Shown one piece after another: positions 3,688-35,237 of a DNA stretch of 64,000 nt. This DNA comes from Hyphomonas adhaerens MHS-3 (GTDB lineage Bacteria; Pseudomonadota; Alphaproteobacteria; Caulobacterales; Hyphomonadaceae). Position 1 is the first letter of the stretch. The number at the start of each line of letters is the position of its first letter. The stretch spans positions 186,001 through 250,000 of the forward strand of contig NZ_ARYH01000002.1 in assembly GCF_000685235.1 (NCBI RefSeq). The letters run 5' to 3'. The notes below the pieces were generated by a model. It was not told the DNA's origin and made no database searches. It saw nothing but the letters and a program-made list of their open reading frames with translations. The translations under genes and the position numbers were made by a program.

Positions 3688-3688
3688 C

Positions 3689-4501: not shown

Positions 4502-4504
4502 TAC

Positions 4505-8940: not shown

Positions 8941-9221
8941 ACAGCTGGCAGCCGGGGACTAAGCAATCTTATCAGCCGGATATCGTCGCTCCAGGCTGCA
9001 GATTCATGCTTCGATCTCTGAAGTGACTTTATCACCGTCTGGCGGTTAACGAATATCTTCGAACGCAAGCGGGCTGCTGGGTGGACATAGCAACTTCGGT
9101 CGCGGCCAAGATTGAGGAGGCGAGGCCGAAGACTGCGTGAGCGCGGCAATGCAGCCTCGTCGAACGGCACAGAATTATTTAGGGTTGAAGGTCTACTTGA
9201 GGGCAAACATCAGAACCCACC
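8941..9221. other. Spacer between RT and metallo-beta-lactamase genes
   Basis: 281 bp without a convincing gene. It has modest short repeats (CGAGGCCGAAG, GCGGCAATGCAGCC) and could hold a structured RNA, but I see no clear stem-loop with a terminator. No strong ribosome site precedes the next ATG. Confidence 0.25.
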
Positions 9222-10265: not shown

Positions 10266-10597
10266 TGACCGGCGATGGCGTTCTGAAGATGAGTTCGGAG
10301 CTGGACAATCTGAAAAAGTATTTCGGATCGGCGCGCATGGCGGACATCCTGGCGCTTCAGGTCATGCATCACGGCTCAAAATACAATTGGCACAGAGGCA
10401 TCGCAAAACACCTCTCGCCGGCCTTCAGCATCTTTTCCGCCGATCCAAGCCGGCTGAGGCCGGGCCATCCTAGCCCGGTTGTCCTGGCGGATTTCAATCC
10501 GTTCAATCCCAAGACTGCCGACCTGCACGAGGGAATATTGATCTACGCCCGGTACCCGCCGTCGAGCACGTTCAAAATGACCGTTGAAGGCACGTAG
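10265..10597 (+). pseudogene. Metallo-beta-lactamase-fold protein, C-terminal part
   Basis: This 110-residue frame begins with an ATG overlapping the previous stop (TGATG) and contains MTGDGVLKM, then LALQVMHHGSKYNWHR, matching the LLTGD and HHGS motifs of the second half of the ComEC-like metallo-beta-lactamase fold. Reading the same frame upstream of the ATG gives RRLVGSF, which joins naturally onto TGD, so the true domain continues across the break and the ATG is probably not an original start. It is either a frameshifted pseudogene, a sequence error, or two chains made by coupled translation. It converges with the exonuclease gene ending at 10615. Confidence 0.7.
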
Positions 10598-10614
10598 GCA
10601 ATTTTCTCCAGCGC

Positions 10615-12006: not shown

Positions 12007-12197
12007 CCGGGCTCCTTCACCTTCCACAAGACATTGCGGTCCGCATCTCCAATCTACGGTTTTGTGACCGCGAATCCTCGTCTAGGTGTAGACAGCATTG
12101 TTGATGTGTAAAAGCGGATGGGTATGCCATTGAACAAATGAAGTTTTTTGTTGCCAATTGGCGCACAATTCCAACCCGCCACGCGCTCACCCGCTAG

Positions 12198-15197
12198 ATG
12201 CAGCCAACACGAGTCAAACATCCTTCTATGACCTTTGAACTTCGCCCCGGCCCTTCTCCGAACAGGCGCCCCGTTGCCGGGGGACGTATCAAAGTGCGGG
12301 GGTCAGTCTGGAAAGTTCAGAACGTCGAACCGGATGGCGCTGCAAACTTCCTGCACTGCATCGGCCTCAGCGGCATTACCCGCGGCAAATCATCAATCTT
12401 CATAGACAGACTGGAGCCTGACCTAGAGCTGCTCGACCCGGCCAATCTGACCCTTATCCCCGACACGTCCAGCAATTTCAGGCAGACCAAGCTCTACCTT
12501 GAAGCCGCCTTCAGGAGTGCGCCTCCTGCGACCGATACGCCGCTCGTTCTTGGACAGGCCGCGATTGATGATCTTGCCTTCCAGCATGCGCCTGTGGAAC
12601 GTGCGCTAAGCCAGTCGCGGGTGCGGCTCTTGATCGCCGACGATGTCGGCCTAGGCAAAACGCTTGAAGCCGGCCTTGTGACCTCAGAACTCATCCTACG
12701 CCATCGTGCTGACCGCATTCTGGTCGTGACGACCCGCGCGATGCTGACCCAGTTTCAGCGGGAATTCTGGACCAGGTTCTCGATCCCGCTTGCACGCCTC
12801 GATGGGGCCGCCATCAAGCGCATGCGCAATGCGATCCCGTCCAACTACAATGTTTTCGACCAATTCGACCGGGCCATCGTGTCAATCGATACGCTCAAAA
12901 AGGATCTGCAATACCGCGTCGCGCTGGAAAACTCGCGCTGGGATCTGATCATCATTGACGAGGCTCACAATGTCGCTGCGCGTAAGTCCGCCGCTGGCTC
13001 TAAAAGCCAGCGGGCGCGCCTCGCCGAATTGTTGGCCCGCCAGACAGACGCGCTCCTGCTTCTGACGGCAACACCCCATGACGGCTCAGCAGAATCCTTT
13101 GCGAGCCTGATCGAGATGCTCGATCCGACACGGGTGCCCGATCCTGCTTCTTTGCGACGCGAGGATATTGAAGATCTGGTGATCCGGCGTTTCCGCTCGT
13201 CGCCGGAAGTCATGTCAGCCATTCGGGCACATGTGCCCGAAAGGGTGATCAATCCGCGCCACTTCCCACTCACGCCCCAGGAAGACGCGGCCTATGATCT
13301 GGTGGCGCGACTGGAACTCGACCTGGATGCAGACGTCAACAAGCCAGGACGCGCCATCGATCTCTTCCGCACGACCCTCGCCAAGGCTCTATTCTCGAGC
13401 CCGGCCGCCTGCCTTGAAACAGTCGACGGCAGGCTTCGCAGAATGAAGGCGGGTACGGCCAAAGGATCAAATAAGGACCGCCAATCCCTTGAAGATCTAG
13501 CTTCGGCCTTGTCCGTCATCGAACCGGGTTCGTTCAGCAAGTATCAGAACCTTCTGGCACTCCTCAAAGAGATCAGGTGGACAGGCCGCGATCCAGGCGA
13601 CCGGCTTGTCATCTTTTCGGAGCGGATTGCGACGCTGAACTGGCTACAGGCGCAGCTCAGCAAGGATCTCGGGCTTGCGGAGGGCGCCATTGGCAAGGTT
13701 GATGGATCTTCTGTGGAGGCGGACGAGCGCACCCAAAAAATCCTCGAAGACTTCGGCCAACGCGGATCGCACCTTCGGATATTGCTGGCCTCAGACATGG
13801 CCTCAGAAGGTCTTAATCTCCACTTCCAATCCCACAGACTGATCCACTTTGACCTGCCCTGGTCCTTGCTGCGCTTCCAGCAAAGAAACGGCCGCATCGA
13901 TCGTTACGGCCAGCTTTGCAAACCGGAATTCTACTACTTCATCGGCGAAAGCAGCCACGAACGCGTTCGCGATATGTGGGTTCTCGAAAAACTGGTCGCC
14001 AAGGACGAAGCCGCGCAAGATGGCATCGGCGATCCTGCCGTATTTCTCGGTGCAGGCGATATTGACGGCGAAGAAGCGATTGTTGCGGAAGCGGTTGCAC
14101 GTGGGGCGGGCGCTGAAGCATTCGATGCAGAGATGGATCAGCGGGCCAAATCAACCGCGGTTGAGCACGCTGACAATTCCTGGGACCTTCTGTTCAGTGA
14201 GTATGAAACGAGCTCCCCTCCACCGGCAACCGCAGTGCCCCCCCCTCGCCTTTATCCAACGACTTTCAGCTTTGCCACCGACATGCTGCAGACTCTCCTC
14301 CCAGAGGGCACGGGCGATCTTGCAATCGATGGTCGGGAACGGATTATCCGGCTAACGCTCCCTGATGAACTGAAGGCGATCGATAGTTTTGGCTACACGG
14401 ATCGCGGGACAGTCGATGACCGCTACATGCCACCGGAAGCGGTCGGCCCGGGAGACCGGATTGAGCTGACCGATCAGGCCGGCACAGTGACGGCCGCCAT
14501 CAACCAATCCCGCGCCGAAGACCGCGCCTGGCCGCGCCTTCAATACCTCTGGGATGCCCACCCGCTGGTGAATTGGCTGGGAGACCGGGCCGAAGCCCTC
14601 TTTGCGCATGGCACGGCGCCACTTTGTGACGTTCAGCAGGGACTGGGCGAAGGCGACATCGCCATCCTGGTGCATGGCGCCATTGTCGATGGATTAGGGC
14701 ATCCGGCGATCGATCGCTGGGCCGTTGTTGTGTTCGAAGGCGAAAAAGTCTCAAGGATCGAAGAGGATGTCAGCGCCTTTCTGACCGGCATCGGGTTTTC
14801 AGGCGATACGCCCAATCCGGCTCAGCCTGCCCCGTTGGCTTCCTCACATCTCCTCGAAATTGCTGTCGACCGTTTTCAGTCTGAACTCGTCAAGGCGCGG
14901 CAGGCAAAGCAGGCCGAGCTGGACGAAGTGGCCAAAGACATCCGCGCACGGCTCGCAGAATTCAAGACAAGGTTCGATTCCCAGCTCTCGCTGAAGTTCG
15001 GCGACACGGCCGACGCCAGTGAGCAATCAGGATCCGACCGGTTACGAATGAGCCGCAGGGCCAAGCAGCAGAAGAAAATCGAGACCATGTTCCAGGATTG
15101 GGAAAAATGGATCACCGTGAGCTGCAAGCTCGCAGACGAGCCCAATCCTCATGTCGATATCAAGGCCGTGTTCCGGAGGACTTCACATGGCGCTTGA
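12198..15197 (+). CDS. SNF2-type DEAH helicase, DrmD-like
   Basis: The 999-residue protein is a superfamily 2 translocase. The P-loop is ADDVGLGKTLEAGL (about residues 150-163), motif II is IIIDEAHNVAARK (about 251), motif III is LLTATPHDG, and motif VI is QQRNGRIDRYGQ (about 560). The C-terminal 400 residues have no recognised domain and end in a helical, charged region. Length and motif style match DrmD, the SNF2 helicase that opens class 1 DISARM operons, and the next gene is a DrmMI-like methylase, as in DISARM. The stop at 15197 overlaps the methylase start by 11 bp. An alternative start is the ATG at 12228. Its promoter should lie in the 190 bp shared with the divergent exonuclease. Confidence 0.88.
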   Translation: MQPTRVKHPSMTFELRPGPSPNRRPVAGGRIKVRGSVWKVQNVEPDGAANFLHCIGLSGITRGKSSIFIDRLEPDLELLDPANLTLIPDTSSNFRQTKLYLEAAFRSAPPATDTPLVLGQAAIDDLAFQHAPVERALSQSRVRLLIADDVGLGKTLEAGLVTSELILRHRADRILVVTTRAMLTQFQREFWTRFSIPLARLDGAAIKRMRNAIPSNYNVFDQFDRAIVSIDTLKKDLQYRVALENSRWDLIIIDEAHNVAARKSAAGSKSQRARLAELLARQTDALLLLTATPHDGSAESFASLIEMLDPTRVPDPASLRREDIEDLVIRRFRSSPEVMSAIRAHVPERVINPRHFPLTPQEDAAYDLVARLELDLDADVNKPGRAIDLFRTTLAKALFSSPAACLETVDGRLRRMKAGTAKGSNKDRQSLEDLASALSVIEPGSFSKYQNLLALLKEIRWTGRDPGDRLVIFSERIATLNWLQAQLSKDLGLAEGAIGKVDGSSVEADERTQKILEDFGQRGSHLRILLASDMASEGLNLHFQSHRLIHFDLPWSLLRFQQRNGRIDRYGQLCKPEFYYFIGESSHERVRDMWVLEKLVAKDEAAQDGIGDPAVFLGAGDIDGEEAIVAEAVARGAGAEAFDAEMDQRAKSTAVEHADNSWDLLFSEYETSSPPPATAVPPPRLYPTTFSFATDMLQTLLPEGTGDLAIDGRERIIRLTLPDELKAIDSFGYTDRGTVDDRYMPPEAVGPGDRIELTDQAGTVTAAINQSRAEDRAWPRLQYLWDAHPLVNWLGDRAEALFAHGTAPLCDVQQGLGEGDIAILVHGAIVDGLGHPAIDRWAVVVFEGEKVSRIEEDVSAFLTGIGFSGDTPNPAQPAPLASSHLLEIAVDRFQSELVKARQAKQAELDEVAKDIRARLAEFKTRFDSQLSLKFGDTADASEQSGSDRLRMSRRAKQQKKIETMFQDWEKWITVSCKLADEPNPHVDIKAVFRRTSHGA

Positions 15198-18100
15198 TCT
15201 CTTCGGCATCGATAATGAAAACGACTTCTATCCGACCGCGTTTCTGTCCTCGGCGCTTGAGGGAGAGATATCGGATGCCATCGCTCGCTGGGCATCAGGC
15301 GACGAGGCCAGGACTCCCGACAAGCGCCTGGAGTCTATTGCCGAGGACTATCTGCGCCTGCTCAGCCGGATCCGGCAGTCCGGAACACGAGACATCGCGC
15401 TTGAAACAGCCAAGGCCGCATACTCCCTTATCGTTCCGGCGCTCGGCTATCCCTATGGGCGAAGTTTTGCTGAGCTTGAGGAAGGAACGCAGATCCCGCT
15501 GCTCGCGCGCGTCGCCGATGCCGATGGACGCGATCGTCTCTGGATTATTGAAGCCCCCCTACCTGGCAAAGAGGATGAAGCTTCCGACCCGATCTCCCTG
15601 CCCTTCTCCAGGGAGCAGTTTCCGGAAAGCCTCCTTGACGCCGCAGACACATCGACGCCCATCGAAGATCTGATCTCCAACGGCATATTCGATCGGGACG
15701 ACCCACCACGATTTGTCATCGTAGCATCGCCCACACAGCTCGTTCTCATTGACCGGAACAAATGGACGGCGCGTTCAGTCCTCCGCTTTGACCTTTCAGA
15801 AATCTTCTCGCGGGCAGACGCGCCGACCCTTCAGGCAATGGCCTGCTTTATCGCCTGTGAGGCACGTGTTCCAAAGACAGGGATCGCGCTGGCCGAGCGT
15901 CTGGAAGAAGAGGCTCAGCGCCACGCCAATGCGGTGACGGCATCGCTCAAGAAGACAGTGCGCGAAGCGATCGAAATTCTGGGCAATGAAGTCCTCGCTG
16001 TTTGCGAGAACAAATACCCGAAAGGTCATCCGAGGGCAGGCGTCTGGATCGAAAGCGAGGAGCTTTCCATCGAATGCCTGCGCTACATGTACCGCCTGCT
16101 GTTCCTTTTCTACGCCGAGGCCAATCCCCGGCTCGGCATCATGCCCATGAAGGATCCGGCCTATCTCTCAGGCTACAGCCTTGAGGCGCTTCGCGGCCTT
16201 GAATCTGTCCGCTTGCGCACACTGGAGGACCAGACCGGCACGTTCATCTGGGACAGTCTGCAACGCCTGCTCGGGCTGATGTTTGAAGGCCTCGAGCCGA
16301 AGTCGATTGGCGCTTCAAGATCCTTCTCCTTGCCGCGCGTCCGGGTCTCGCTGCTCGATCCAAAGAGTACGCCGATCTTGTCGCGTGTACGCCTGCGCAA
16401 TGCAGCGCTTCAGCGCATCATTCGGCTTCTCTCACTGAAACAGGATAAGGCCGGGACAGGACGCATCTCCTATGCCCAACTTGGCATCGGCCAATTGGGC
16501 GCGGTTTATGAAACGCTGATTTCGTTCACCGGCTTCGTTGCGAAGAGCGATCTCATTGAGCTGATCCCCAAGAAAGGCAAGGACAACCACGCCGACGACG
16601 AAAATGATACCAGCGACGACAGTGACGTGATCGAGGACGAGGAAGAAGAAGAGGCATATTCAGCTGTCGATAAAATCGATCCGCTTGCGCCGAGCTATTT
16701 CGTCGAGCGAAGCCGTGCCGACGAATTTACCCCGGAACAGATTGTCTATGACGGGACTGAGCCGCGCATCTACAAACGTGGCAGCTTCATCTACAGATTG
16801 GCCGGGCGGGACCGGCAGAAGTCCGCCTCTTACTATACACCGGAACCTCTGGCGCGACTGCTGGTCAAACACGCATTGATGGAACTCTGCAAAGACCTTC
16901 CGGCCGACGGCATCCTTGAACTGAAAATACTTGAACCGGCGATGGGGTCTGCTGCCTTCCTGGTGGAAGCAACCAATCAGCTGGCAGATCTCTATCTCGA
17001 ACGTAAGCAAGAAGAGACAGGCAAGCGTATTCCGCAAGAGGATTATTTTGCCGAACGCCAGAAAGTGCGGGCCTATATCGCCGACCGCAATTGTTTCGGC
17101 GTGGACCTTAACCCGATTGCGGTGGAACTGGGTCAGATCTCGCTCTGGCTCAACAGCCTGCACAAGGGTGATTTCTCGCCCTGGTTTGGCGACCAGCTGC
17201 ATGCGGGCAATTCGCTGATCGGGGCGCGGCGGGCGATCTATTCAAAGCACCTTTTGAGCGGAAAGAAGGCCAAGGATTTGTGGCTGGGCGCCAAGCCGCA
17301 GGAAATCGGCTGGCGGGGTGAGCTGCCCGACGGCCATGTCTGGCAGTTCCTGTTGCCGGCGGAGAAGATGGCCAATTTCGACGGCGAAAGATCCATTCGG
17401 GAATTCGCCGGTGAGGCGCAGGATGCCATCAAGGCCTGGCGCAAGGGCGGGTTCTTCGCGCCATTCGAGGCGCATGAGGTCAAGCTACTGGTCCAGCTCT
17501 CGGAAGCCGCCGATGCGCTATTCGACGCGGTAGCCGATGACCTCGAGAAGATGCGCGCGTCATCCAACGACGCCATCACGCTCTGGCCAGACAAACCCAT
17601 GGCGGGTGTCAAAGGACTTGATTACCAATCTAAACTGGAACGCCTGCGCGTGCTGCAGGGCGAGGAACATGTCGCCAATTCCCTGCCCTACCAGCGGCTC
17701 AAGACAGCGATGGACGCCTGGTGCGCACTCTGGCTGTGGCCGCTGGATCAGGTGGGCAAGCTTCCGTCGCGCATGGAATGGTTGCGGGATCTGTCGCTCA
17801 TCCTGTTGGGCGGTATGACAAGCGATGGGGAGATAACCCTGCCGGAGGGCGTAGAATTGCCCGAGGCGCCCCAGGACCTGGTCGAGATGATTGAGACGCG
17901 ACAGGCGGCAGCCGAGGTGATCGCCGCCGACATGCCGTCCAAGACGATCAACGCCGCGCTGTTCCAGGCAACGGACATCGACACGCTGATCCGTAACTCG
18001 CCCTGGCTGCAGGTTGCGCGCGAAACAGCCCGGCGCGAGCGCTTTGTACACTACGATCTCATCTTCGCCGATATTCAGCGCGCGCGCGGCGGATTTGATC

Positions 18101-20088
18101 TGATTGTGGGGAACCCGCCCTGGGCCAAGCCGTCGTGGAATGAAGGATTGGTGCTTGCGGATATCGATCCCAAGCACATGAACCTCTCGGCGTCAGACGC
18201 GAAGAAGATTCTCGCTGAAGCATTGGCGCAAGCCAAAGGTGAGGTGCGCTTCCTTGAGGAATTCGTTTCAACGCGCGGCGCCATGGCGGTGACGAGTTCG
18301 GAGATGATGCACCCATTTGCTGGCGGCGGATCGAACAATCTTTATCGCTGTTTCGCGGACCTGGCGTTTAGGCTGACGGCACCAAAGGGCTATGCGGCGA
18401 TGATCCATCAGGATGGGCATCTGGGTGATCCGAAGTCAGGCGAGTTCCGTCGGCACTGGTATGCGCGGATCGCGAAACATTTCGATCACAGCAACAAGAT
18501 CACCTCAAAGAACTTTGCAGAGGTCGTCGATCATGTGCGCTTCAGCCTGAACATCTATCGTGGCACGCCAGCCAATATTTCGTTCGATCAGATAACGATG
18601 GCATTCTTGGCATCGCAGGTGGAAGAATCATACCAGCACGATGGCTCCGGCTCGATCCCGACGATCAAGGGGCCCGACGGCTATTGGGACACGCGCGGCC
18701 ATCGCGAACGCCTAATGCGGATCGACCGCGATGCGCTGTCAGTCATTCATGCGCTTTCGGAGGAGGAGGGCACGCCGGTCGAAGAAGCCCGCTTCATTCA
18801 GCCTTTCTCGGCGCGAATGCTCGACGTGTTCCGCCAGATGGCGCGCTTTCCAAAGCTTGATGCTGCCATCGCGCCGGTCGAAACGACGGGTGGAGAACAC
18901 GTCGCAGGCTGGCAGATGAACCGCCTGTGGGATGAAACCAACGCTCAGAAAGACGGCACCATAAAACGGAAGACCGCCTTCCGATCGGCCTCAGAGATGG
19001 TCCTGCAAGGGCCGCTCTTCCACGTCGACAATCCACTCTACAAGACGCCACGTGCGGTCTCGCGGACGAATGCCGACTATGATGTGATCGACCTTGTCGC
19101 CGCACCTGACGACTACCTTCCGCGCACCAATTACGGCCCGGCGGTAGAACCCGCCGAATACCGACGCCGCATGACCCGCTGCCGCTGGGATCCAACAAAG
19201 ACACATGCCGACTTCTACCGTGTTGCATTTCGAGCGATGATCAACTTGAATAGTGAACGAAGCTTGATCGGTGCCACAATTCCGGTTGGCGCTGCTCATG
19301 TGAACAGCATAGAAAGCGTGGCGTTCAGAGACGAAACGGACCTCGTTAATGCCACCGCACTTTGGTGCAGTTTGCCGATCGATTTCTTGATTAAGGCAAG
19401 CGCCAAACAAAACCTGCATGACAAAGACGCGCAGGGAATCCCTTGGGCCGAACTGAACGACACTTCCAAGCACCGCGGCCTCCGCCTCGCCTCCCTCACA
19501 ACGGCGTATGCCGACCTCTGGAACCGCAACGGGCCCAATCTGAAGCCCTTGCCCTGGTCGTCCGACGATCCGCGACTTGCGCTGGAGGGGCCGGTCGAGG
19601 GACCTCGAGCATGGGACCGCACCGCGGCCTTGCGCACCGAGTTCGCCCGTCGCTTGGCTTTAGTTGAAATCGACGTGCTTGTGGCTCAGGCATTTGGCCT
19701 CAAGCTCGATCAGTTGATTGAGATCTATCGGATCTACTTTCCCGTGCTGCAGGAGAATGAGGCCGGCACTTGGTATGATCAGAATGGGCGGATTGTGTGG
19801 ACCTGTTCCAAGGGACTGCCGGGGATTGGCTGGCTGGAGCCAAATCGAACTGGGGAGATGAAGAGTCCAGGACGAGCGGCTTGGGAGACTAAGCTCACAG
19901 AATTGAATGCTCTTCCGGCTGACAAGCAGGTGCTCACCTGCACGGTCGTGGATGATACGCAGCCAGGCGGCCCGCGTGAGGTTGAGCGGAGGTTTGTCGG
20001 GCCCTTCACGAAGTGTGACCGGGTTGAAGACTATAAGCGTGCCTGGGCCTTCTTTGAGGCCCACAAGGATAAGGATGGGATGGCATGA
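15187..20088 (+). CDS. Giant N6-adenine DNA methyltransferase, DrmMI / Eco57I-like
   Basis: The protein is 1633 residues if it begins at the ATG at 15187, which has GGAGG eight bases upstream; the frame opens at 15151. It methylates adenine N6 with SAM. Visible are ASYYTPEPLARLLVKHAL (about 545-562), motif I as LEPAMGSAAFLVEA (about 580), the acidic motif GVDLNPIAVELGQISLW (about 638) and catalytic motif IV NPPW (about 975). The 330 residues between motifs I-III and NPPW are an insertion typical of Eco57I and DrmMI enzymes. A very acidic linker (about 465-495, with a run DEEEEEA) precedes the methylase domain; the first 460 residues are unassigned, and the last 500 may be target recognition. 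It overlaps genes on both sides (11 bp and ATGA), so co-translation is expected. It supplies self/non-self marking. Confidence 0.92.
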   Translation: MALDLFGIDNENDFYPTAFLSSALEGEISDAIARWASGDEARTPDKRLESIAEDYLRLLSRIRQSGTRDIALETAKAAYSLIVPALGYPYGRSFAELEEGTQIPLLARVADADGRDRLWIIEAPLPGKEDEASDPISLPFSREQFPESLLDAADTSTPIEDLISNGIFDRDDPPRFVIVASPTQLVLIDRNKWTARSVLRFDLSEIFSRADAPTLQAMACFIACEARVPKTGIALAERLEEEAQRHANAVTASLKKTVREAIEILGNEVLAVCENKYPKGHPRAGVWIESEELSIECLRYMYRLLFLFYAEANPRLGIMPMKDPAYLSGYSLEALRGLESVRLRTLEDQTGTFIWDSLQRLLGLMFEGLEPKSIGASRSFSLPRVRVSLLDPKSTPILSRVRLRNAALQRIIRLLSLKQDKAGTGRISYAQLGIGQLGAVYETLISFTGFVAKSDLIELIPKKGKDNHADDENDTSDDSDVIEDEEEEEAYSAVDKIDPLAPSYFVERSRADEFTPEQIVYDGTEPRIYKRGSFIYRLAGRDRQKSASYYTPEPLARLLVKHALMELCKDLPADGILELKILEPAMGSAAFLVEATNQLADLYLERKQEETGKRIPQEDYFAERQKVRAYIADRNCFGVDLNPIAVELGQISLWLNSLHKGDFSPWFGDQLHAGNSLIGARRAIYSKHLLSGKKAKDLWLGAKPQEIGWRGELPDGHVWQFLLPAEKMANFDGERSIREFAGEAQDAIKAWRKGGFFAPFEAHEVKLLVQLSEAADALFDAVADDLEKMRASSNDAITLWPDKPMAGVKGLDYQSKLERLRVLQGEEHVANSLPYQRLKTAMDAWCALWLWPLDQVGKLPSRMEWLRDLSLILLGGMTSDGEITLPEGVELPEAPQDLVEMIETRQAAAEVIAADMPSKTINAALFQATDIDTLIRNSPWLQVARETARRERFVHYDLIFADIQRARGGFDLIVGNPPWAKPSWNEGLVLADIDPKHMNLSASDAKKILAEALAQAKGEVRFLEEFVSTRGAMAVTSSEMMHPFAGGGSNNLYRCFADLAFRLTAPKGYAAMIHQDGHLGDPKSGEFRRHWYARIAKHFDHSNKITSKNFAEVVDHVRFSLNIYRGTPANISFDQITMAFLASQVEESYQHDGSGSIPTIKGPDGYWDTRGHRERLMRIDRDALSVIHALSEEEGTPVEEARFIQPFSARMLDVFRQMARFPKLDAAIAPVETTGGEHVAGWQMNRLWDETNAQKDGTIKRKTAFRSASEMVLQGPLFHVDNPLYKTPRAVSRTNADYDVIDLVAAPDDYLPRTNYGPAVEPAEYRRRMTRCRWDPTKTHADFYRVAFRAMINLNSERSLIGATIPVGAAHVNSIESVAFRDETDLVNATALWCSLPIDFLIKASAKQNLHDKDAQGIPWAELNDTSKHRGLRLASLTTAYADLWNRNGPNLKPLPWSSDDPRLALEGPVEGPRAWDRTAALRTEFARRLALVEIDVLVAQAFGLKLDQLIEIYRIYFPVLQENEAGTWYDQNGRIVWTCSKGLPGIGWLEPNRTGEMKSPGRAAWETKLTELNALPADKQVLTCTVVDDTQPGGPREVERRFVGPFTKCDRVEDYKRAWAFFEAHKDKDGMA

Positions 20089-23000
20089 ACCCGATCCTGC
20101 TCGGCAAACAGGTTAAAGATGGGCTGAGGGATCTGGTCCGCTCAAGCTTTGAAACGACGACTGCTGCCTTTTCAGGTATGATTGAGCGGTTTCTTGGGAC
20201 GGATGGAAATTTCCTGAAAGGTCCCTGGCTATCGGTTGATCTGCCGTTCCGGCCTGCAGACTCCGAGATTGAACTCTTTCCGGAAGTGCCGCTGGGGTTT
20301 CGTCCGCACAAGCACCAGGAACTTGCCTTCAACAGGTTGCGCGCGCCGAACGCCCGATCCACGCTTGTTGCGACGGGTACGGGGTCAGGTAAGACCGAGT
20401 GTTATCTCTGGCCGATCCTGGATGCGTGCCGCGCTCAGATGGCTGAGCCCGGGATCAAGGCGATCATCATCTATCCAATGAATGCGCTTGCCACCGATCA
20501 GGCGCGGCGCATTGCCAAGGCCATTCACCGCATACCTGCTCTCAAAGGCGTGCGATGCGGCATCTATGCGGATTCCGAGCCGACGCCCGCCAGCGATGCG
20601 ATGAGTGATGCTGACGTCATCACCAGCCGCGAAGAAATGCGGCGAAACCCGCCAGATATTCTGCTCACGAACTATAAGATGCTGGACTATCTGCTCTTGA
20701 GGGGACGTGACAAGCGGCTCTGGGCGAAGAATGGTCCGGAGACGCTTCGCTATCTCGTTGTCGACGAATTGCATACATTTGATGGGGCGCAAGGCGCCGA
20801 TCTTGCGCTTCTTATCCGGCGGTTGAAGGCGCGTCTGGGGACGCCGCAGAACCATCTCGCCTGCGTCGGGTCTTCCGCTACGCTCGGAAGCGGTGAGGAT
20901 GCGGTTGATAGATTGATTTCTTATGCAAGCGACCTTTTTGGCGAAGCGTTTGAGCGGGACGGCGTCATCCAGGAAGACCGGCTTCTGACCCATGAATATC
21001 TGGAAAGCATTGACTATACTGATCTCCCCGCGCCTGGAGAAATTGTTGAGGCTGTACGAGCAGGGTTGGGTCAGTCGCAGGCCGGTATCGCGCTCAATCT
21101 GGCACGGCTCTTCTTTGACGATTTCGACCCGAACAGCACCTACTACGACGAGAGCCTGCCAGCAGATGCCTCGTCGGAGGCGTGGCGCATCGCGCTCGGG
21201 ACGCGTTTGCGGGCGCATGTGGCCTTTCACCGGGTCCTCGAGGCGATACAGACCAGTGGTCGAGCCGCACTCCTTGAGGGAGCCGTGGGTGCGCTGGCAG
21301 GCGCGCGGCTCTTTCGCGACGGCTGGACAAGGCCTGAACTCGCGGCGCTTGTGGAAGCCGTTGTCATCCTGACCTCATGGGCGCGCCGGGAACTTGGTGG
21401 CCGGGCACAGCCCCTCCTGAATGTCCGAGCACAAATCTGGGCGCGTGAACTCGGCCGTATGGTCGCTCTGTTACCCCGGCCCGGCGAGAGCGAAGACCTC
21501 GTGCCTGCCAGCCTGCATCACTCGGCCGACATGGAGACCGAAGATCTTGAGCGCGCCCTGCCGGTAATTCATTGCCGGCATTGCGGCACGAGCGGCCAGC
21601 TTTGCCGGATCAATGAGAGCAGCCAGAATCTCGGCGCCGACCTCGATACGCTCTATGCAGAATTCTTCGAAGGCGGTGACCGGCTGCGTGTCGTCTATTT
21701 TGAGGCCGTCAGGGCAAAGCTGAAGGGCAAAACGCATGGCGGGGTTGTGAAGGTCAGCGTTCATCCGGACAGTCTTGATTACAAGTGGGAGGAAGCCTCC
21801 CAGATGGCAGCTGGCTGGACGTCTGCTTGGCTCTACGATCCTACAAACGAAAAGGGCTTCATCGACAGAACCTGCCCGGCCTGCGGGACTGAACACAGCC
21901 TGCAAATCCTCGGCCTCAGATCGGCCCGGCTGACAGCCGCGCTTTCGACCACCTTGTTCAACTCCGATCATCATGAAGAGCTGGACACGGAAAAGCCCCG
22001 GGTTCTGATCTTTTCCGATTCCGTCCAGGACGCAGCTCAGCGCGCGGCCGTGACCGAAATCAGAAACGTCCAGACGGTCGTTCGAAAAGCGCTCTATCGT
22101 TCAGCATCCTCGCATGATGAGGATGGACTCGCTTTGAGTGTCCTGTGGAGCGATGAGATTGACCGCATGCGTACCGAACTTGGCGAGGCAGGTTTCATTG
22201 CCCGATTTGTAGCGCGCGATCAAAGCTGGCGCCAACCTTATCAGGACCTCGCTCTGAAGGACGAAGTGCCAACGGACACGATGTTCGGCGACGATGTCGC
22301 CTTGCGGCTCGGCTGGGAATTTTTCTCCGACCTCACTTACCGCTCGCGCACATCTCAGACCCTCGAAACCGCGAGGCTCTGCGTCGCAGATGTGCCAGCC
22401 GGGCGGCTTGCTGATGCCGCTGAGGAATTCCAGGCAGCCCTGCAGGCCCATCTTGGCAATGGCTACGCCATCGATCTTGATGAGGCGAATTCATTCCTGA
22501 CGGGACTCGCCATCCATATGCGCCGGTCCGGTGCGGTCTGGCACCCTTATGTCAAGCGCGCAGCCGAACAAGGTTCGCCCGCACGGGGGCTCAATTTTTA
22601 TGCGGCCGCGCGCACGCTGGGTCTTGGCAATCGCGGTGTCCTGCCTTTCCCCAATCCGAGGCGCTCAGCCGCTCCAAGGCTGCCGACGCTTCGGTCTCGC
22701 GCGGAAGGCTTTCAGTTTGTCGGACGCGATCACGGGACCAATTGGTACCGGGCCTGGATCAACCGCTTCTTTGGCAAGGCGGACGGCGGGTTCGGGACCA
22801 ATCATACCGACATCTTTCGTCTCGCATTCGACGTGCTTGCCCGCCAGGACGTAACCGAAGAGGTTATGACCTCCGGCAATGAAGTAATTGGTGTCTGGGG
22901 GCTGCGGCCCGAAGCGGTTCGTCTAACGCAAAAAGCCGTCGATCTCACCTGCGACCAGTGTGGTCGCCGCGAATGCGTCACCGGCGTGGAGCCCCTCGCT

Positions 23001-26000
23001 TGCCTGCGCATAGGTTGCGAGGGGTCACTTCGGCCAACTGGGGAGACCCCGGCCTCGTCAGACTCGTCCGCCTATCTCAGAGGCGTGATGGAAACCTCAC
23101 GCAATCATCGCATCGTCGCTCGCGAACATACCGGCATTCTCGAAACGGATGACCGGCGGCAGCTGGAGCGGCTTTTTATTGAAGGCGAGGCCCCCTGGCA
23201 CCCCAATCTGATCTCTGCGACCCCGACGCTTGAAATGGGCATCGATATCGGGGACCTCTCCACCCTCATTCTTGCTTCCATGCCGCCGGAAGAAGCCAAT
23301 TATGTTCAGCGGATCGGGCGCACCGGACGGCGGGACGGCAACTCGCTCAATCTGACGCTGATCGCTGCACGGCCCCACGATCTTCAATTTTGGGAAGATC
23401 CAGGCTCGATGCTGGCCGGTCAGGTGACGCCGCCGGGCGTGCATTTGCAAGCCGCTGCAGTTCTGAGGCGGCAGGCCGCCGCCTTTGCCCTCGACCGATT
23501 TGTGGCCGATAGCGAGACAGAGATCGACTATGGAAAGGTCAATACAGCAATATCCGCACTGGCCAGGAACATACCTGGAGGTTTCCCGTGCAACTGGTTC
23601 ACTCATTTGAGGGGCAATGGTGCGGAGATTGCCGAGGCCTTCCTCGCAATTCTGCCCGAAGCTGTGCGCGACAGCGAAGCGCTTGTGACCCAATTGCGAG
23701 ACTATTTGGTCGGCGATGGGGAAACCTCTCTCCGCTACCGCGTCCGGGCGGTATTTGACGAGGCCGCCGAAGAACGCGCCGAATTACTCGAGCTTCAAAA
23801 GCAGCTCGACAATGCGCGCCGCCGGCTGAAGGACCAGTCGCCTCCGCCAATGGATCTCGACGAGCAACTGAAGAAGTTGAGTGAGCGGCGGACAGAAATA
23901 TCGCGGACGATTCGAGAGACGATCAACCAGGTTCAGGTTCTGCAATTTCTGACCGATCGTGGCCTCCTGCCGAACTACGCCTTCCCGGAAGAAGGCGTGA
24001 AGCTCAAGTCAATCATCGTCAAATCGCGTGAAGTCAGCGATACGCGTGCAGACGGGGATGCGGATCTCATCATCCGCGAATATCAGCGCCCAGCCTCCTC
24101 GGCCTTGAGTGAATTTGCGCCTGACCAGACCTTCTATGCAGAAGGACGCGAAGTCACGATCGACCGGATAGACCTTCGCTCAAAAGACCTTTCTGTCTGG
24201 CGCTTTTGTCCAAATTGCACGCATGGCGAGCTTGATGCGACAGGCGGCAGTCGAGCCACATGTCCGCGATGTGACACTCCGATGTGGTCAGATTCTGGCG
24301 CTCAGGCGGAAGCCGTGGATTTGCGGTCCGTCGTTGCAACAAGCAGCGAACAGAAAGCAGCAATACGAGATATCGATGAGCGGACCCAGCGCCAATATGA
24401 CCGCCAGGTCTTCCCCAATTATAGCAACGAGGCCATCGAGGTCGCCTATGCCATCAAAGGCGGCAAAGCTCAGGCGCCATTCGGATTTGAATTTATCCCT
24501 CAATGCGACTTCCGGGATGTCAATTTCGGCCTGAAGACCGGTGTGCGCCAAGGAGCAATGATCGCCGGCCAACAACGCCAGTCGCGTCCGTTCCGGATAT
24601 GCCGCAAATGCGGCATGCTGCAGAAAGACATTTTCGACAAAGACCGCGATCAGAAACCTGGTAGCCACCAATCCAAATGCTCTGCGGACGGCATGGCCGA
24701 ACCGCGATCAGTCTGGGAAGCGCCCGTCTATCTCATGCGCCGGTTCACGACCGAGGCCTTGCGCCTGATTGTGCCTGTCGCCGGCCGGGCAGATGATGAC
24801 GACATCAAGAGCTTTGTTGCGGCGATCGAGCTTGGCCTGAAGAAGTATTTCTCCGGCCGGGTGGACCATATCCGGAGCGTTGTAGTCGAAGAGCGTCTCC
24901 GCAGCGGCGCGAGCGTGCGAAACCTATATCTTTATGACGCCATTCCAGGTGGGTCGGGATATCTGCGTCAACTCGCGAGCAATCCACAAAGCTTGCTGCG
25001 TGTGTTCCGCCTCGCAGCCTCGACCTTGCGCGACTGCCCCTGCGCGAATGAAGACCACAAGAATGGCTGCTTTCGTTGCGTCAAACCCTATCGCTCGCAA
25101 TTTGGCCCGGGCGAGCCGAAGCGCGACCTGGCATTGCAGCTCGTCGAGGCGGTTCTCGCCGACTGGGATGCCCTGACCGAGGTTGAACAGGCGATCAACG
25201 AAGAACTCGGTGCGGACCTCATTGAAAGCGAACTGGAAGCACGCTTCCTGGATGGACTGAAGAAAGCCTTCGGCGCGCGCAACCTGAAGGATATCATTCT
25301 CGGCAACGGGCAACGCGGCCTTCAGCTTCGCATCGAAGTGCAGGGCGAGGAAATTTACTGGCAGATCGAACCACAGGTTCAGATCAATGAGCGCTTCCCT
25401 GGTCTGCCGGAGCGAAGGGTTGATTTTGTCCTGACCGCTCAGGGTGAGCGTGCTGGCAAACCCATGGTCATCGAACTTGATGGCTGGGAGTTTCACGCAA
25501 AGAGCCTGGAAGATGATGTCGAAAATCGGATCCGCATGATCCGAAGCCGGCAGGTGGAAGTATGGACACTCACCTGGGACGATTTCGAAGAGGTGCCCGG
25601 ACCTGCTGCGAATCCCTTCAGGCAAGGCGGTCTCGATACTGGCCGGGAAACAGTTCTTGCCGGGCTGCTAACGGATCCGCGCTACAATGCCCTTCACAGC
25701 CTGGCCGGAGGTGTTGATACTTTGCGGTCCGGAAGGTCTATGGAAGCGCTCATCGCTCGCTTGAAAGATGATACCTGGGAACCTGCTAAGGCAGCCCTTC
25801 TCTTTGGCAGGGTTGCGCTCGGCCGGAAGGGAGAGGCGCTTGCAGATCTGCCGGCCGATCTCATCAATGAAGATGCCCGTCTCTTCCTTGAGGAGGGTGC
25901 ACTGTTCGGAACGCTGAGTGACCGCGGACTGACGGCCTTTTTTGGGCTCGCAGACGTCTCTCCGCTCGATACGGTCGATCAGGGCAATGCTGCCCGCCTT

Positions 26001-26489
26001 GTCCTTCATGCGGCCATGTCGCCGCTATATGAAACCCGGCTGGATGACAAAGACGCACGCGCCCTCTGGAGAGGGCTCTGGCGCAGCATCAATCTATTAC
26101 AGGAACTTCCCGGCCTCCATGTCAGCCTGCCAGGGCTAGAGACACTGGACGCCCGGTCGGCAGAGGCCAGCTTCTCCGCCAGCGCGCCTGTATCTGACAT
26201 TGAATGGCAGGATATCCGCTCACTGGTCGGGCCAGAGCTTGCCGACCTGGTGACGTCAATCCAGCTTGCCGGCCTGCCGCCACCTGATCTTGTCGGCCAG
26301 GACATGATGCAGGGCGACCAGGTTGTCGGAACCATAGAGCTCGGTTGGGAAGCTCGCAGGATTGCAATCGCACTCGCACCGATCGACCTGGAAGGCTGGG
26401 ACATTGCCGTTGCTGTACCTGTCGATGCCCCAGACTATTCTGCATTCCTTCGCCAAATCCTCCGTTCTGTTTCTGGAGACGCCGCATGA
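20085..26489 (+). CDS. 2134-residue helicase with DUF1998-like region and C-terminal nuclease-like fold
   Basis: Motifs of a superfamily 2 helicase open the protein: Walker A ATGTGSGKTE (about 95-104), motif II VVDELHTFDGAQG (about 225), motif III GSSATLG (about 262) and motif VI QRIGRTGRRDG (about 1075). Several Cys pairs follow: CRHCG and CPACG between the helicase halves, then CPNC/CPRC (about 1375-1400), CRKC (about 1507) and CPCANEDHKNGCFRC (about 1650), the last typical of DUF1998. Near 1780-1815 come RRVDFVL and MVIELDGWEFH, then a D-x-x-x-R-helix, resembling PD-(D/E)xK/Vsr-like nucleases. It reads like DISARM DrmA and DrmB fused, or like DruE of Druantia. It is joined by ATGA overlaps to the methylase and to the RelE-UvrD gene. 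Confidence 0.9.
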   Translation: MNPILLGKQVKDGLRDLVRSSFETTTAAFSGMIERFLGTDGNFLKGPWLSVDLPFRPADSEIELFPEVPLGFRPHKHQELAFNRLRAPNARSTLVATGTGSGKTECYLWPILDACRAQMAEPGIKAIIIYPMNALATDQARRIAKAIHRIPALKGVRCGIYADSEPTPASDAMSDADVITSREEMRRNPPDILLTNYKMLDYLLLRGRDKRLWAKNGPETLRYLVVDELHTFDGAQGADLALLIRRLKARLGTPQNHLACVGSSATLGSGEDAVDRLISYASDLFGEAFERDGVIQEDRLLTHEYLESIDYTDLPAPGEIVEAVRAGLGQSQAGIALNLARLFFDDFDPNSTYYDESLPADASSEAWRIALGTRLRAHVAFHRVLEAIQTSGRAALLEGAVGALAGARLFRDGWTRPELAALVEAVVILTSWARRELGGRAQPLLNVRAQIWARELGRMVALLPRPGESEDLVPASLHHSADMETEDLERALPVIHCRHCGTSGQLCRINESSQNLGADLDTLYAEFFEGGDRLRVVYFEAVRAKLKGKTHGGVVKVSVHPDSLDYKWEEASQMAAGWTSAWLYDPTNEKGFIDRTCPACGTEHSLQILGLRSARLTAALSTTLFNSDHHEELDTEKPRVLIFSDSVQDAAQRAAVTEIRNVQTVVRKALYRSASSHDEDGLALSVLWSDEIDRMRTELGEAGFIARFVARDQSWRQPYQDLALKDEVPTDTMFGDDVALRLGWEFFSDLTYRSRTSQTLETARLCVADVPAGRLADAAEEFQAALQAHLGNGYAIDLDEANSFLTGLAIHMRRSGAVWHPYVKRAAEQGSPARGLNFYAAARTLGLGNRGVLPFPNPRRSAAPRLPTLRSRAEGFQFVGRDHGTNWYRAWINRFFGKADGGFGTNHTDIFRLAFDVLARQDVTEEVMTSGNEVIGVWGLRPEAVRLTQKAVDLTCDQCGRRECVTGVEPLACLRIGCEGSLRPTGETPASSDSSAYLRGVMETSRNHRIVAREHTGILETDDRRQLERLFIEGEAPWHPNLISATPTLEMGIDIGDLSTLILASMPPEEANYVQRIGRTGRRDGNSLNLTLIAARPHDLQFWEDPGSMLAGQVTPPGVHLQAAAVLRRQAAAFALDRFVADSETEIDYGKVNTAISALARNIPGGFPCNWFTHLRGNGAEIAEAFLAILPEAVRDSEALVTQLRDYLVGDGETSLRYRVRAVFDEAAEERAELLELQKQLDNARRRLKDQSPPPMDLDEQLKKLSERRTEISRTIRETINQVQVLQFLTDRGLLPNYAFPEEGVKLKSIIVKSREVSDTRADGDADLIIREYQRPASSALSEFAPDQTFYAEGREVTIDRIDLRSKDLSVWRFCPNCTHGELDATGGSRATCPRCDTPMWSDSGAQAEAVDLRSVVATSSEQKAAIRDIDERTQRQYDRQVFPNYSNEAIEVAYAIKGGKAQAPFGFEFIPQCDFRDVNFGLKTGVRQGAMIAGQQRQSRPFRICRKCGMLQKDIFDKDRDQKPGSHQSKCSADGMAEPRSVWEAPVYLMRRFTTEALRLIVPVAGRADDDDIKSFVAAIELGLKKYFSGRVDHIRSVVVEERLRSGASVRNLYLYDAIPGGSGYLRQLASNPQSLLRVFRLAASTLRDCPCANEDHKNGCFRCVKPYRSQFGPGEPKRDLALQLVEAVLADWDALTEVEQAINEELGADLIESELEARFLDGLKKAFGARNLKDIILGNGQRGLQLRIEVQGEEIYWQIEPQVQINERFPGLPERRVDFVLTAQGERAGKPMVIELDGWEFHAKSLEDDVENRIRMIRSRQVEVWTLTWDDFEEVPGPAANPFRQGGLDTGRETVLAGLLTDPRYNALHSLAGGVDTLRSGRSMEALIARLKDDTWEPAKAALLFGRVALGRKGEALADLPADLINEDARLFLEEGALFGTLSDRGLTAFFGLADVSPLDTVDQGNAARLVLHAAMSPLYETRLDDKDARALWRGLWRSINLLQELPGLHVSLPGLETLDARSAEASFSASAPVSDIEWQDIRSLVGPELADLVTSIQLAGLPPPDLVGQDMMQGDQVVGTIELGWEARRIAIALAPIDLEGWDIAVAVPVDAPDYSAFLRQILRSVSGDAA

Positions 26490-28663
26490 CCGAGACCCAA
26501 TACCGCGTTTCCTTTGACGTTGCCTGCATGAAGGCCCTGCGAAAGCTTCCCTCAAAAGTCATGGAGCGATTTCATGACATGGTGCTGAAGCTCATGGTCG
26601 ATCCCTCGCGCAGCGGCCTCAACATTGAGTCCATTCAAGGTGCGCAGGATCCGGCCATGCGTTCTTTCCGCATCGATCAGGGCTACCGCGCCATCGGCTA
26701 TTTGCAAGGCGGCGACTTACTGCTTTTGCATGTCGATGAACATGACAAGGCCTATCGATGGGCGACCAATCGGACTGTGCAGTTTAACACCAAACTGAAC
26801 CGGATCCAGATCCTCGAAAGCGCAACGGCCAGTGAAGCGGCTCCTGCCGGCAATGCGGCCGCGCCCCCAGAACGCACGCGCAAGGGACCGGGACTGTTTG
26901 ATCCCTATACAGATCTGGAATTGACGGGACTCGGCATCGCCGAGAAGCAGATCGACAGGATCCGGACCTATGAGACCGAAGCAGATCTGGAAGCTGATCG
27001 CACCTTTCTGGATGCAACAAGCTACGACGTCCTTTTCTCGTTAGCCGCAGGCTTTTCACTTCAGGAAATCCCAGACCTCATCCTGGCCAATGATCGTCTA
27101 CCTACCGCCAAATTGGAGTTCGCAGAAGCGTTACGGACGGATGAGAGCCGCCAGGATATTTTTGTCCCTGATGACGAAGAAGACCTTCGTCGCTTCCTCA
27201 ATGGTGACCTCGAGGGCTGGCAGGTTTTTCTGCACCCGGAGCAGAGGCGGATTGCCTATCATCGAGCCTATAAAGGCCCCGCCCTCGTCCGCGGCGGTGC
27301 CGGCACAGGCAAGACCGTCGTTGCCATGCATCGGGCCAAACATCTGGCTGATGCGATCGCCAAGGATGCGGGTCGCAAAGGTGACAAAGTCCTGTTCACC
27401 ACTTTCACGTCGACCCTTGCCCAAGACGTCAAGGCCAACCTTGCCACCTTGTGTCCGGAACACCTGGCAGGCCCAGATCCGGTCATTGAAGTGATCAATC
27501 TCGACCGCTGGGTTGGTGACTTTCTGAAGCGCCGCGGATTTGAACGAAACATTGTCTATTTCGGCGAAGACCGCGACCGGCTTGACGATATCTGGACAGA
27601 AGTCCTTGCCGACGCCATCCTACCGGAAGGTTTGTCGGATGAATTCATCAAGGATGAATGGGCCCAAATCATTCAGGCTAAGGGGATCGGAACCGAGCGC
27701 GATTATTTCATGGTCCAGCGAACCGGCCGAGGTACGCCGCTTGATCGTCGAAAGCGGCGCGCCTTGTGGACGGTTTTTGAAGCCTACCGTGCAAAGATGG
27801 TGAGCGAGGGACTGGCTGAACCAGATGACGCCTATCGCGAAGCCATCGCCATATTGGAAAAAGACCGAACCCGGCTTCCCTACTCTTCAGTCGTTGTCGA
27901 CGAAACACAGGATATGGGAGAACCAGCCCTTCGTCTCATCCGGGCCATTGTTCCGAAATCCGGTGAAGGAGATCGCGACAGTCTCTTTCTTGTGGGAGAT
28001 GCACACCAGCGAATCTATTCCCGGAAAGCTTCTCTTTTGGGGTGTGGGATAGAGGTCAGAGGGAGCGCCAGTCGGCTTCGCCTCAATTACAGAACCACCG
28101 AACTGATCCGCCGCTACGCTGTTGCTGTCCTCGAAGGTGTTGCCGTCGATGATCTGGACGATGATTTCGACACGCTGTCCGGCTATCGTAGCCTGAGGCG
28201 CGGTGCCGATCCCATTCGGATTGGCTATGCGACGCCTTCCAAAGAGATCGCCGCGCTGATCGATTGGCTGAAAGAAGTGCCGCCAGACGGCAACACGCCC
28301 GTTTCGACAGCCGTTCTGGTCCGTACAAACCGGCAACTGAGCGAGATCGAAGCGGCGCTTGGCGCTGCCGGGCTTGAAGTATTTGTCTTGCGCAACAACC
28401 GGCCGGACGATCGAATTACACCGGGAGTCCGCCTGGCAACCATGCACCGGGCTAAAGGCCTTGAATTTGATCGCGTGGCATTGGCGCTCCTTTCGAGCGA
28501 AATGGTTCCGCCGCGCCAAGCCCTGTCGCATGCGGTCGATGAAGCTGGCAGGCGCGAAGTCATTGAACGGGAAAAGTCGTTGATCCATGTTGCGGGCACG
28601 CGTGCCAGAAGTGAGTTGAGGGTGAGTTGGCACGGGATCCGTCCAGATCTAATTCTGGGATAG
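26486..28663 (+). CDS. RelE/ParE-like domain fused to a UvrD/Rep-type helicase
   Basis: The ATG at 26486 overlaps the previous stop (ATGA) and has a GGAGA ribosome site; the product is 725 residues. Residues 1-90 follow the RelE/ParE toxin pattern: KALRKLP, then RSFRIDQGYRAIGY, then HVDEHDKAYRWA. A linker leads to a superfamily 1 helicase: Walker A RGGAGTGKTVVAMH (about 267-280), motif II VVVDETQDMG (about 468), motif III LVGDAHQRIY, and the late motif TMHRAKGLEFDRVALAL (about 651). RelE proteins cleave mRNA on ribosomes; whether this one keeps activity is unknown, and it may only be a binding module. It is the fourth gene of the operon. It could sense or unwind phage DNA replication intermediates; that is inference. 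Confidence 0.9.
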   Translation: MTETQYRVSFDVACMKALRKLPSKVMERFHDMVLKLMVDPSRSGLNIESIQGAQDPAMRSFRIDQGYRAIGYLQGGDLLLLHVDEHDKAYRWATNRTVQFNTKLNRIQILESATASEAAPAGNAAAPPERTRKGPGLFDPYTDLELTGLGIAEKQIDRIRTYETEADLEADRTFLDATSYDVLFSLAAGFSLQEIPDLILANDRLPTAKLEFAEALRTDESRQDIFVPDDEEDLRRFLNGDLEGWQVFLHPEQRRIAYHRAYKGPALVRGGAGTGKTVVAMHRAKHLADAIAKDAGRKGDKVLFTTFTSTLAQDVKANLATLCPEHLAGPDPVIEVINLDRWVGDFLKRRGFERNIVYFGEDRDRLDDIWTEVLADAILPEGLSDEFIKDEWAQIIQAKGIGTERDYFMVQRTGRGTPLDRRKRRALWTVFEAYRAKMVSEGLAEPDDAYREAIAILEKDRTRLPYSSVVVDETQDMGEPALRLIRAIVPKSGEGDRDSLFLVGDAHQRIYSRKASLLGCGIEVRGSASRLRLNYRTTELIRRYAVAVLEGVAVDDLDDDFDTLSGYRSLRRGADPIRIGYATPSKEIAALIDWLKEVPPDGNTPVSTAVLVRTNRQLSEIEAALGAAGLEVFVLRNNRPDDRITPGVRLATMHRAKGLEFDRVALALLSSEMVPPRQALSHAVDEAGRREVIEREKSLIHVAGTRARSELRVSWHGIRPDLILG

Positions 28664-28671
28664 AGGCACGC

Positions 28672-28785
28672 ATGCGGGAACCGGCATTTAAAGACTGGTT
28701 CGACGCCCGTAGTGCGTCGGTCGCTCGAGCATGTGGAGAGCTCCGCTCCCGACGCACTCGCGATATCTCAAACCATGAACAATGA
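28672..28785 (+). pseudogene. Short truncated reading frame after the helicase operon
   Basis: Eight bases after the UvrD-type gene, an ATG with a GAGG site starts a 37-residue frame beginning MREPAFKDWFDARSASVAR. The first dozen residues look like the start of restriction-associated proteins that open with a phage-integrase-like helical segment (EPAFxxWLxARxLS); the reading then ends at a TGA. It may be the stump of a lost fifth gene, or a genuine small coupled gene. The following 115 bp up to the PLD gene hold nothing recognisable. Confidence 0.35.
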
Positions 28786-28900
28786 AAGGGTCAGACTCTC
28801 GAAATAAACGCGGGACCCGTGGGGCTCAGCTCAGGCTGACGAAAGCAAATCTCATGCCGAGCTTCTCAGGTCTATCTAAACTCAATTTGACTGACGATTT

Positions 28901-33315: not shown

Positions 33316-33488
33316 CTAAACAACGACCTTTCAATTCCGTTACAGAAGAGGTTCTCCATGCACGCTTGAAAAGTCTTTCGGGCGGCCACTAAACTTTTGG
33401 GTATTTCAGATTTATTTGTTGACTACATCATCATTTTTTGGTTAATACATGGGTATTCCAGAATTCCATTGCACCCAGGAGTTTTCGT
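33316..33488. other. Intergenic region upstream of the HTH gene
   Basis: This region becomes strongly AT-rich towards the right and holds the promoter described at 33419-33448. Nothing else is recognised. Confidence 0.3.
33419..33448 (+). promoter_or_regulatory. Sigma-70-like promoter for the HTH/DUF4258-like pair
   Basis: TTGACT at 33419-33424 and TAATAC at 33443-33448 are separated by 18 bp, close to consensus housekeeping promoter boxes. The start codon of the next gene (33489) lies about 40 bp downstream with an AGGAG ribosome site. Confidence 0.5.

Positions 33489-35147: not shown

Positions 35148-35237
<90 letters not shown>

Follow-up and report, generated by a model that had tools for sequence, protein, structure and literature searches.

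ARMADA Type II is an anti-phage system named in 2025 (Bell et al., bioRxiv, September 2025; PMC12458937). According to the main text of that paper, its genes encode, in order, a SNF2/BrxHII-like ArmA, a PglX-like ArmB, a giant YprA/DruE-like ArmC and a RelE-UvrD protein, ArmD. The Escherichia coli strains studied there, NCTC 12900 and ATCC 8739, carry systems in which all four genes are required and defence is direct and non-abortive, and ARMADA is placed beside Druantia (PMC12458937); another paper, in the part that treats ARMADA, lists the restriction mechanism as unknown (PMC12904381). Here we examined a stretch of 64,000 nucleotides from Hyphomonas adhaerens MHS-3 (contig NZ_ARYH01000002.1, positions 186,001 to 250,000; hereafter the window), in which four genes of the forward strand, at 12198-28663, overlap their neighbours by 11, 4 and 4 bp. 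An original prediction, made from the letters alone, had described these genes as an operon of a SNF2 helicase, a DrmMI-like methylase, a 2134-residue helicase with DUF1998-type cysteines and a RelE-UvrD fusion, and had suggested a distinct hybrid subtype mixing DISARM and Druantia parts. Judging from sequence comparison, we identify them with high confidence as an ARMADA Type II system and place it on an integrated island of 37.3 kb in the Hyphomonas genome. Through this operon, a defence class whose validation is recent would reach a Hyphomonas island, where its neighbours differ.

All four proteins align over nearly their full length with those of E. coli ATCC 8739, with 40% identity for ArmA (934 aligned residues), 41% for ArmB (1549), 36% for ArmC (2013) and 40% for ArmD (699); against a relative of the same genus (G038) the values for ArmA to ArmD are 75, 69, 71 and 73%. 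The residues mutated in the E. coli work, in NCTC 12900 numbering (ArmA K136 and D236, ArmB N971 and G605, ArmC K110 and D234, ArmD K266 and D454; PMC12458937), bear the same numbers in ATCC 8739; at the corresponding sites, the window and seven further systems under comparison have the same amino acid in all eight cases. Because the ATP-binding and methylase motifs are conserved, the four enzymes appear to be intact. The parts also follow the published definition: a BrxHII/RapA-like ArmA comes first, a PglX-like ArmB second, a YprA-like ArmC with a fused MZB domain third and an ArmD joining RelE to a GajB-like UvrD helicase last, strictly A-B-C-D on one strand, with no extra gene inside the operon. 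Like the E. coli systems, this one is carried on a tRNA-integrated element; unlike them, it has a Hyphomonas host, sits at a tRNA-Ser rather than a tRNA-Phe or tRNA-Leu, and has as island neighbours DRT9, a C5 methylase and a PLD gene, with no match to ZorA, ZorB or DruH. Given these different neighbours, ARMADA would therefore not be bound to the array with Zorya and Druantia in E. coli.

Domain searches agree with this picture. Pfam places SNF2/Helicase_C, Eco57I/N6_Mtase, DEAD/Helicase_C/MZB and UvrD domains across the operon. PADLOC, whose use on the four proteins the original prediction had proposed, gives as best labels DrmD for ArmA (9.5e-102), REase_MTase_IIG for ArmB (6.9e-196, with DrmMI behind at 8e-58), DruE3 and DruE1 for ArmC (2e-101 and 2.5e-97), and RTasHel and GajB, both UvrD-type helicases, for ArmD (2.5e-21 and 8.4e-21). 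The RelE part of ArmD was recognized through its fold: a model of residues 1-240 (pLDDT 89.6) finds solved RelE-family toxins as its best match (2khe, E 1.4e-4, TM 0.79 on target). Thus the operon with its overlaps, the SNF2 helicase, the DrmMI-like methylase, the DUF1998-type domain (PF09369) and the RelE-UvrD fusion were all borne out. Behind the zinc-binding domain of ArmC, residues E1718, Q1764, D1780, D1799, H1804, D1811, R1815 and D1833 are invariant in 52 aligned sequences (51 of the 75 available relatives plus the window), as would be expected of a working nuclease, and make this region a candidate for the Vsr-type domain. In a quick tree of 34 rows (midpoint root, no bootstrap, with ArmC rows from 19 of the 80 loci described below), ArmC of the window groups with 27 other ArmC rows, apart from three DruE rows; three partial rows from related genomes are also separate from the 28 ArmC rows.

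The same arrangement recurs widely. Taking one genome per species, a survey gave 575 pattern matches and 493 ArmC relatives; the 80 best relatives were retained, and every one of them was examined. Where both flanks were in view, meaning 8 kb or more upstream and 2.3 kb or more downstream, the order was A-B-C-D in 39 of 50 loci, so that the neighbourhood survey that had also been proposed found the four-gene order conserved, distant genomes included. Since it recurs in distant genomes, the arrangement of the four proteins is not a matter of chance. ArmA is followed by ArmB in 49 of the 58 loci with an upstream view, and ArmD stands behind ArmC in 62 of the 65 with a downstream view; the misses are L082 and L088, which read A-B-C without ArmD, and L093, in which the ArmD frame overlaps the ArmC frame. 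Five loci read B-C-D (L047, L062, L071, L073 and L089), with 4.8-6.3 kb from B to C, where cargo shifts ArmA close to, or past, the end of the retrieved sequence; in L063 a weak ArmA-like helicase lies among the cargo between B and C, and three loci (L070, L081 and L096) show C-D alone. Hosts include Pseudomonadota, Cyanobacteriota, Bacillota, Campylobacterota, Bacteroidota, Chlorobiota, Calditrichota, Thermotogota and Thermodesulfobacteriota. Plasmids of Haematobacter, Martelella, Gemmobacter, Microvirga, E. coli and Pseudanabaena carry the same operon, that of Haematobacter with an additional gene between armB and armC. ArmC is nevertheless rare: at E<=1e-100 it occurs in 7 of 398 sampled genomes of the phylum, two of these partial, and a full-length copy is present in 2 of the 101 genomes made up of the own genome and its relatives. 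Three further genomes (G008, G013 and G014) match about 240 residues of the ArmC helicase core only. In L096, where no ArmA or ArmB was seen in the 12 kb upstream, a DruE-like giant helicase lies directly upstream of ArmC (L096:6548-11950).

Several points weigh against an assignment to ARMADA Type II. Identity to the tested systems is just 36-41%, and 11 of the 50 fully viewed loci depart from A-B-C-D. The tree held no row of ARMADA Type I, DISARM or DrmA, and it is gene order and ArmD that argue for Type II. The candidate nuclease region of ArmC has no Pfam match, and a Foldseek search with a 445-residue model of the ArmC C-terminal part returned nothing at E<=0.001, the best hit being BsmI (2.0e-3, TM 0.22); a PDB sequence search with the profile of this part found five designed or engineered repeat proteins over a helical middle region, which we judged uninformative. 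The RelE part of ArmD has no Pfam match even at E<=1, and a RelE activity would follow from the modelled fold.

Might the locus instead be an undescribed hybrid subtype? No model named for such a system occurs among the best 25 PADLOC 2023 matches listed or among the NCBIfam matches, and none of the four proteins reaches an NCBIfam cutoff. Against this, the published definition of ARMADA Type II fits part by part and in order, and the relatives fall in one published class with the same four genes; we therefore rejected this reading, to which we give very little chance. The comparisons indicate a system that is distinct from DISARM and Druantia yet already published, and not new. Thus, of the original prediction, a separate, conserved system related to DISARM and Druantia stood, whereas its novelty did not; parts and order match the ARMADA Type II definition, one part, the predicted Vsr-type nuclease, by its conserved residues. 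It had held that homologues with the same four genes in an annotated DISARM or Druantia subtype would argue against novelty, and a published class with these genes indeed exists, though it is ARMADA Type II rather than a subtype of either.

A variant of DISARM class 1, with drmA and drmB fused and drmC lost or replaced by the neighbouring PLD gene, seems still less probable. PADLOC relates ArmA to DrmD and ArmB to DrmMI, so that a related SNF2 helicase and methylase are indeed shared with DISARM class 1, and a PLD-domain gene lies directly downstream on the opposite strand. Yet ArmC matches DruE models at 2e-101 and DrmA models at best at 8.4e-12, over a short helicase stretch, and ArmA scores 349 bits against an NCBIfam DrmD equivalog cutoff of 610. 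The PLD gene (28901-31516) is PDC-M27B/ZacB-like rather than DrmC-like, its PADLOC match to DrmC being weak (3.1e-4), and, going by gene names, no gene annotated as PLD lies beside the four genes in seven annotated comparison regions. We rejected this reading: helicase and DUF1998 domain are joined in one 2134-residue protein in place of separate DrmA and DrmB genes, a RelE-UvrD gene is added, and, as had been claimed at the outset, no short drmC is found among the four genes.

Equally improbable is a Druantia subtype whose DruE gained DISARM-type partners. DruE models are the top PADLOC matches of ArmC, ARMADA and Druantia are placed next to each other in the main text of PMC12458937, and Druantia type III (DruH-DruE) likewise has a giant YprA-like helicase with a zinc domain of the DUF1998 type and a nuclease region at the C-terminus, for which ArmC has a candidate. 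However, ArmC is 25% identical to ATCC 8739 DruE over 1798 residues versus 36% over 2013 residues to ArmC of that strain, the three DruE rows stand apart from the ArmC rows in the tree, and the partners of ArmC in the window are ArmA, ArmB and ArmD. A tblastn search (E<=1e-3) of the window and the adjoining 20 kb on the left, with ATCC 8739 DruH as the one query, found no match, though a distant DruH could escape it, and Druantia type III was rejected for want of this partner. Zorya type II can be dismissed too, as ATCC 8739 ZorA and ZorB have no match in the window and the C-terminal part of ZorE alone matches, inside ArmC.

That match deserves attention within the ARMADA Type II reading. ZorE is described as a nickase (PMC11890865, in the passages on ZorE). 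On well-supported sequence evidence, ArmC ends in a stretch of ~85 residues that is homologous to the C-terminal domain of ZorE: NCBIfam matches ArmC residues 2039-2107 to ZorE (6.5e-6), PADLOC labels the isolated module ZorE2 (5.2e-7), and a profile comparison of the module with ATCC 8739 ZorE gives a probability of 96.9% (1.3e-10 over 83 columns). BLASTP against ZorE yields 2e-9 for ArmC of the window and 8e-8 for ArmC of ATCC 8739, while a profile built from ArmC sequences only scores ZorE at 8.4e-15 and finds no match in ATCC 8739 DruE at E<=0.01. A separate alignment of the module comprises 44 of 51 fragments plus the window. The HNH part of ZorE, on the other hand, is unmatched in ArmC. 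The module is present in 74 of the 80 ArmC frames; of the six without it, four lie on short contigs, with the frame near or off the end, and two belong to the ArmD-less loci L082 and L088, where one deletion may have removed both ArmD and the module. Across the 398 genomes of the phylum, with at most 13 first-look candidates scored per genome so that weak carriers may be missed, ten carry the module at E<=1e-4: six in ArmC, three in ZorE and one in a Zorya II remnant that retains parts of ZorA and ZorE. Six of the seven ArmC genomes are thus included, the seventh (G242) holding part of the gene only, and the three ZorE are encoded together with ZorA and ZorB, as Zorya II sets, in genomes where ArmC had no match. 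Carriers of the module are not confined to ARMADA loci.

Cargo between armB and armC touches on the same module. Among the 63 of the 80 loci with ArmB in view, 28 have an armB-armC gap of at least 600 bp; the window operon carries no cargo there. A scan of 15 of the 59 listed inserted or compared proteins (ten by PADLOC, nine by Pfam, four by both) identified complete Zorya II sets of ZorA, ZorB and ZorE in two loci (L062:6134-9902 and L089:6820-10303), an AbiLi-AbiLii pair (L064), TmtA (L071), a GmrSD-type protein (L062), a pair of OLD-TOPRIM and UvrD proteins (L055), a PLD-domain helicase (L036) and, slightly under its cutoff, a weak M78-peptidase match (L007). The module ends four of the inserted proteins, namely both ZorE, the L071 TmtA and the GmrSD-type protein from L062. 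In the last of these, a complete copy (6.7e-15) is preceded by a stretch with a weak, partial match (0.0067). We tentatively suggest, while thinking it somewhat less than an even chance, that the module shared by ArmC and ZorE is a portable unit that brings DNA-attacking enzymes to a common target or partner, and that ARMADA is a chassis with a slot for whole cargo systems between armB and armC. This recruiting role is one that we infer, and ZorE with the module also occurs where no ArmC was found. If true, it would explain in physical terms why ARMADA and Zorya II occur together, and the module, as a near-constant tail of ArmC, makes the role testable in two systems together. ZorE has no mention in the main text of the ARMADA paper (PMC12458937), and the main text of PMC13192584 mentions ARMADA twice without an ArmC-ZorE link and calls the C-terminal region of ZorE unassigned; the link is thus absent from these main texts, supplements aside, and may be in print elsewhere.

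As to mechanism, the four proteins of this ARMADA system would work jointly on incoming phage DNA. ArmA and ArmB could recognize and remodel DNA without the host methyl mark, ArmC would unwind it and cut with its predicted C-terminal Vsr-type nuclease, and ArmD might extend the unwinding, its RelE-like domain either attacking RNA or regulating the complex. Because methylase loss also abolishes ARMADA II defence (PMC12458937, main text), ArmB probably belongs to the attack and does not serve self-marking alone.

The gene calls and domain coordinates are collected in table 1. For armA the start may lie some codons further in, as the alignment with the G038 relative begins at residue 11. The mechanical open reading frame of armB begins at 15151, from which the motif residues N988 (NPPW) and G599 (AMGS) are numbered; the ATG at 15187, with GGAGG seven bases upstream, is most likely the true start, giving the 11-bp overlap. 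The mechanical frame of armD begins at a TTG (26345); in the 725-residue ArmD the Walker A and Walker B residues are K276 and D472. The alignment of ArmD fragments comprised 47 of 62 plus the window. Scans of 11900-29000 stayed at background, with 2 promoter-like sites, where shuffled sequences averaged 5.5, and 18 terminator-like sites against 15.1, and an Rfam scan of positions 1-36000 of the window returned a tRNA as its sole match.

Table 1. Features of the putative ARMADA Type II operon and its integration site (window coordinates)
Feature	Position	Strand	Remarks
armA	12198-15197	+	999 aa; BrxHII/RapA-like SNF2 helicase; Walker A K154, Walker B D254
armB	15187-20088	+	1633 aa; PglX/type IIG-like adenine methyltransferase; 11-bp overlap with armA
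armC	20085-26489	+	2134 aa; giant YprA/DruE-like helicase; 4-bp overlap with armB
MZB/DUF1998 zinc-binding domain of ArmC	24819-25082	+	Residues 1579-1666; PF09369, 1.8e-8
Predicted Vsr-type (PD-(D/E)xK) nuclease domain of ArmC	25227-25619 (boundaries approximate)	+	Conserved residues; family name from PMC12458937 (main text)
C-terminal ~85-residue module of ArmC	26184-26432	+	Homologous to the domain at the C-terminus of ZorE, the nickase of Zorya II
armD	26486-28663	+	725 aa from ATG; RelE-like domain and GajB-like UvrD helicase; 4-bp overlap with armC
RelE-like domain of ArmD	26486-26821	+	About residues 1-112; predicted model and PDB match
tRNA-Ser(TGA)	35148-35237	-	Integration site of the 37.3-kb island carrying the operon

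Comparison with related genomes indicates that the operon belongs to an integrated element. The last 14 bases of the tRNA-Ser, at its 3' end (35148-35161), recur at the far end of the island (L014:17884), 2.1 kb to the left of the window and 37,264 bp from the first copy, with a phage-integrase fragment beside it. The genes flanking the island are 37,545 bp apart here versus 280-291 bp in seven relatives (G004, G006, G018, G027, G032, G035 and G036). The tRNA-Ser was found in all four relative loci scanned, which belong to three of those seven relatives (two loci in G018, one each in G004 and G006), and a single copy of the 14-mer in six of six, from five genomes. The left flanking gene occurs in 12 genomes, the own included; four of them (G003, G007, G031 and G040) lack the pair together. 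E. coli ARMADA islands also lie in tRNA genes (PMC12458937, main text).

Other genes of the island were also noted. Directly downstream of armD on the reverse strand (28901-33083), the PLD-like protein of 871 residues is accompanied by a protein of 550 residues without a family match; G038 has a different pair in this place, a 547-residue protein without a PADLOC match and a DrmD-like one of 1058 residues. A 396-residue frame between the PLD pair and the tRNA-Ser (33438-34628) has no Pfam, PADLOC or NCBIfam match. Towards the other end, 1047-6460 holds a C5 methylase (best PADLOC label DrmMII) and a PDC-M33A-like protein of 651 residues, whose two neighbours have no Pfam or PADLOC match. The region 7279-12027 carries a DRT9 reverse transcriptase (PADLOC Drt9, 1.6e-157) and an MBL-fold pair; the latter, two adjacent frames (9222-10265 and 10265-10597) with weak matches to the N-terminal (5.4e-6) and C-terminal (5.9e-4) portions of the LmuA profile, looks like one interrupted MBL-fold gene. 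On the opposite strand of this region lies an ExoI/SbcB protein (RTasSbcB, 1.8e-140), which is the sole match in its own genome (E<=1e-5), while 54 of the 61 genomes searched have none. Since a delta-sbcB E. coli is reported, in the relevant part of PMC12483538, not to be transformable with active DRT9, and given this distribution, SbcB may be an antidote to DRT9 that the island brings along itself.

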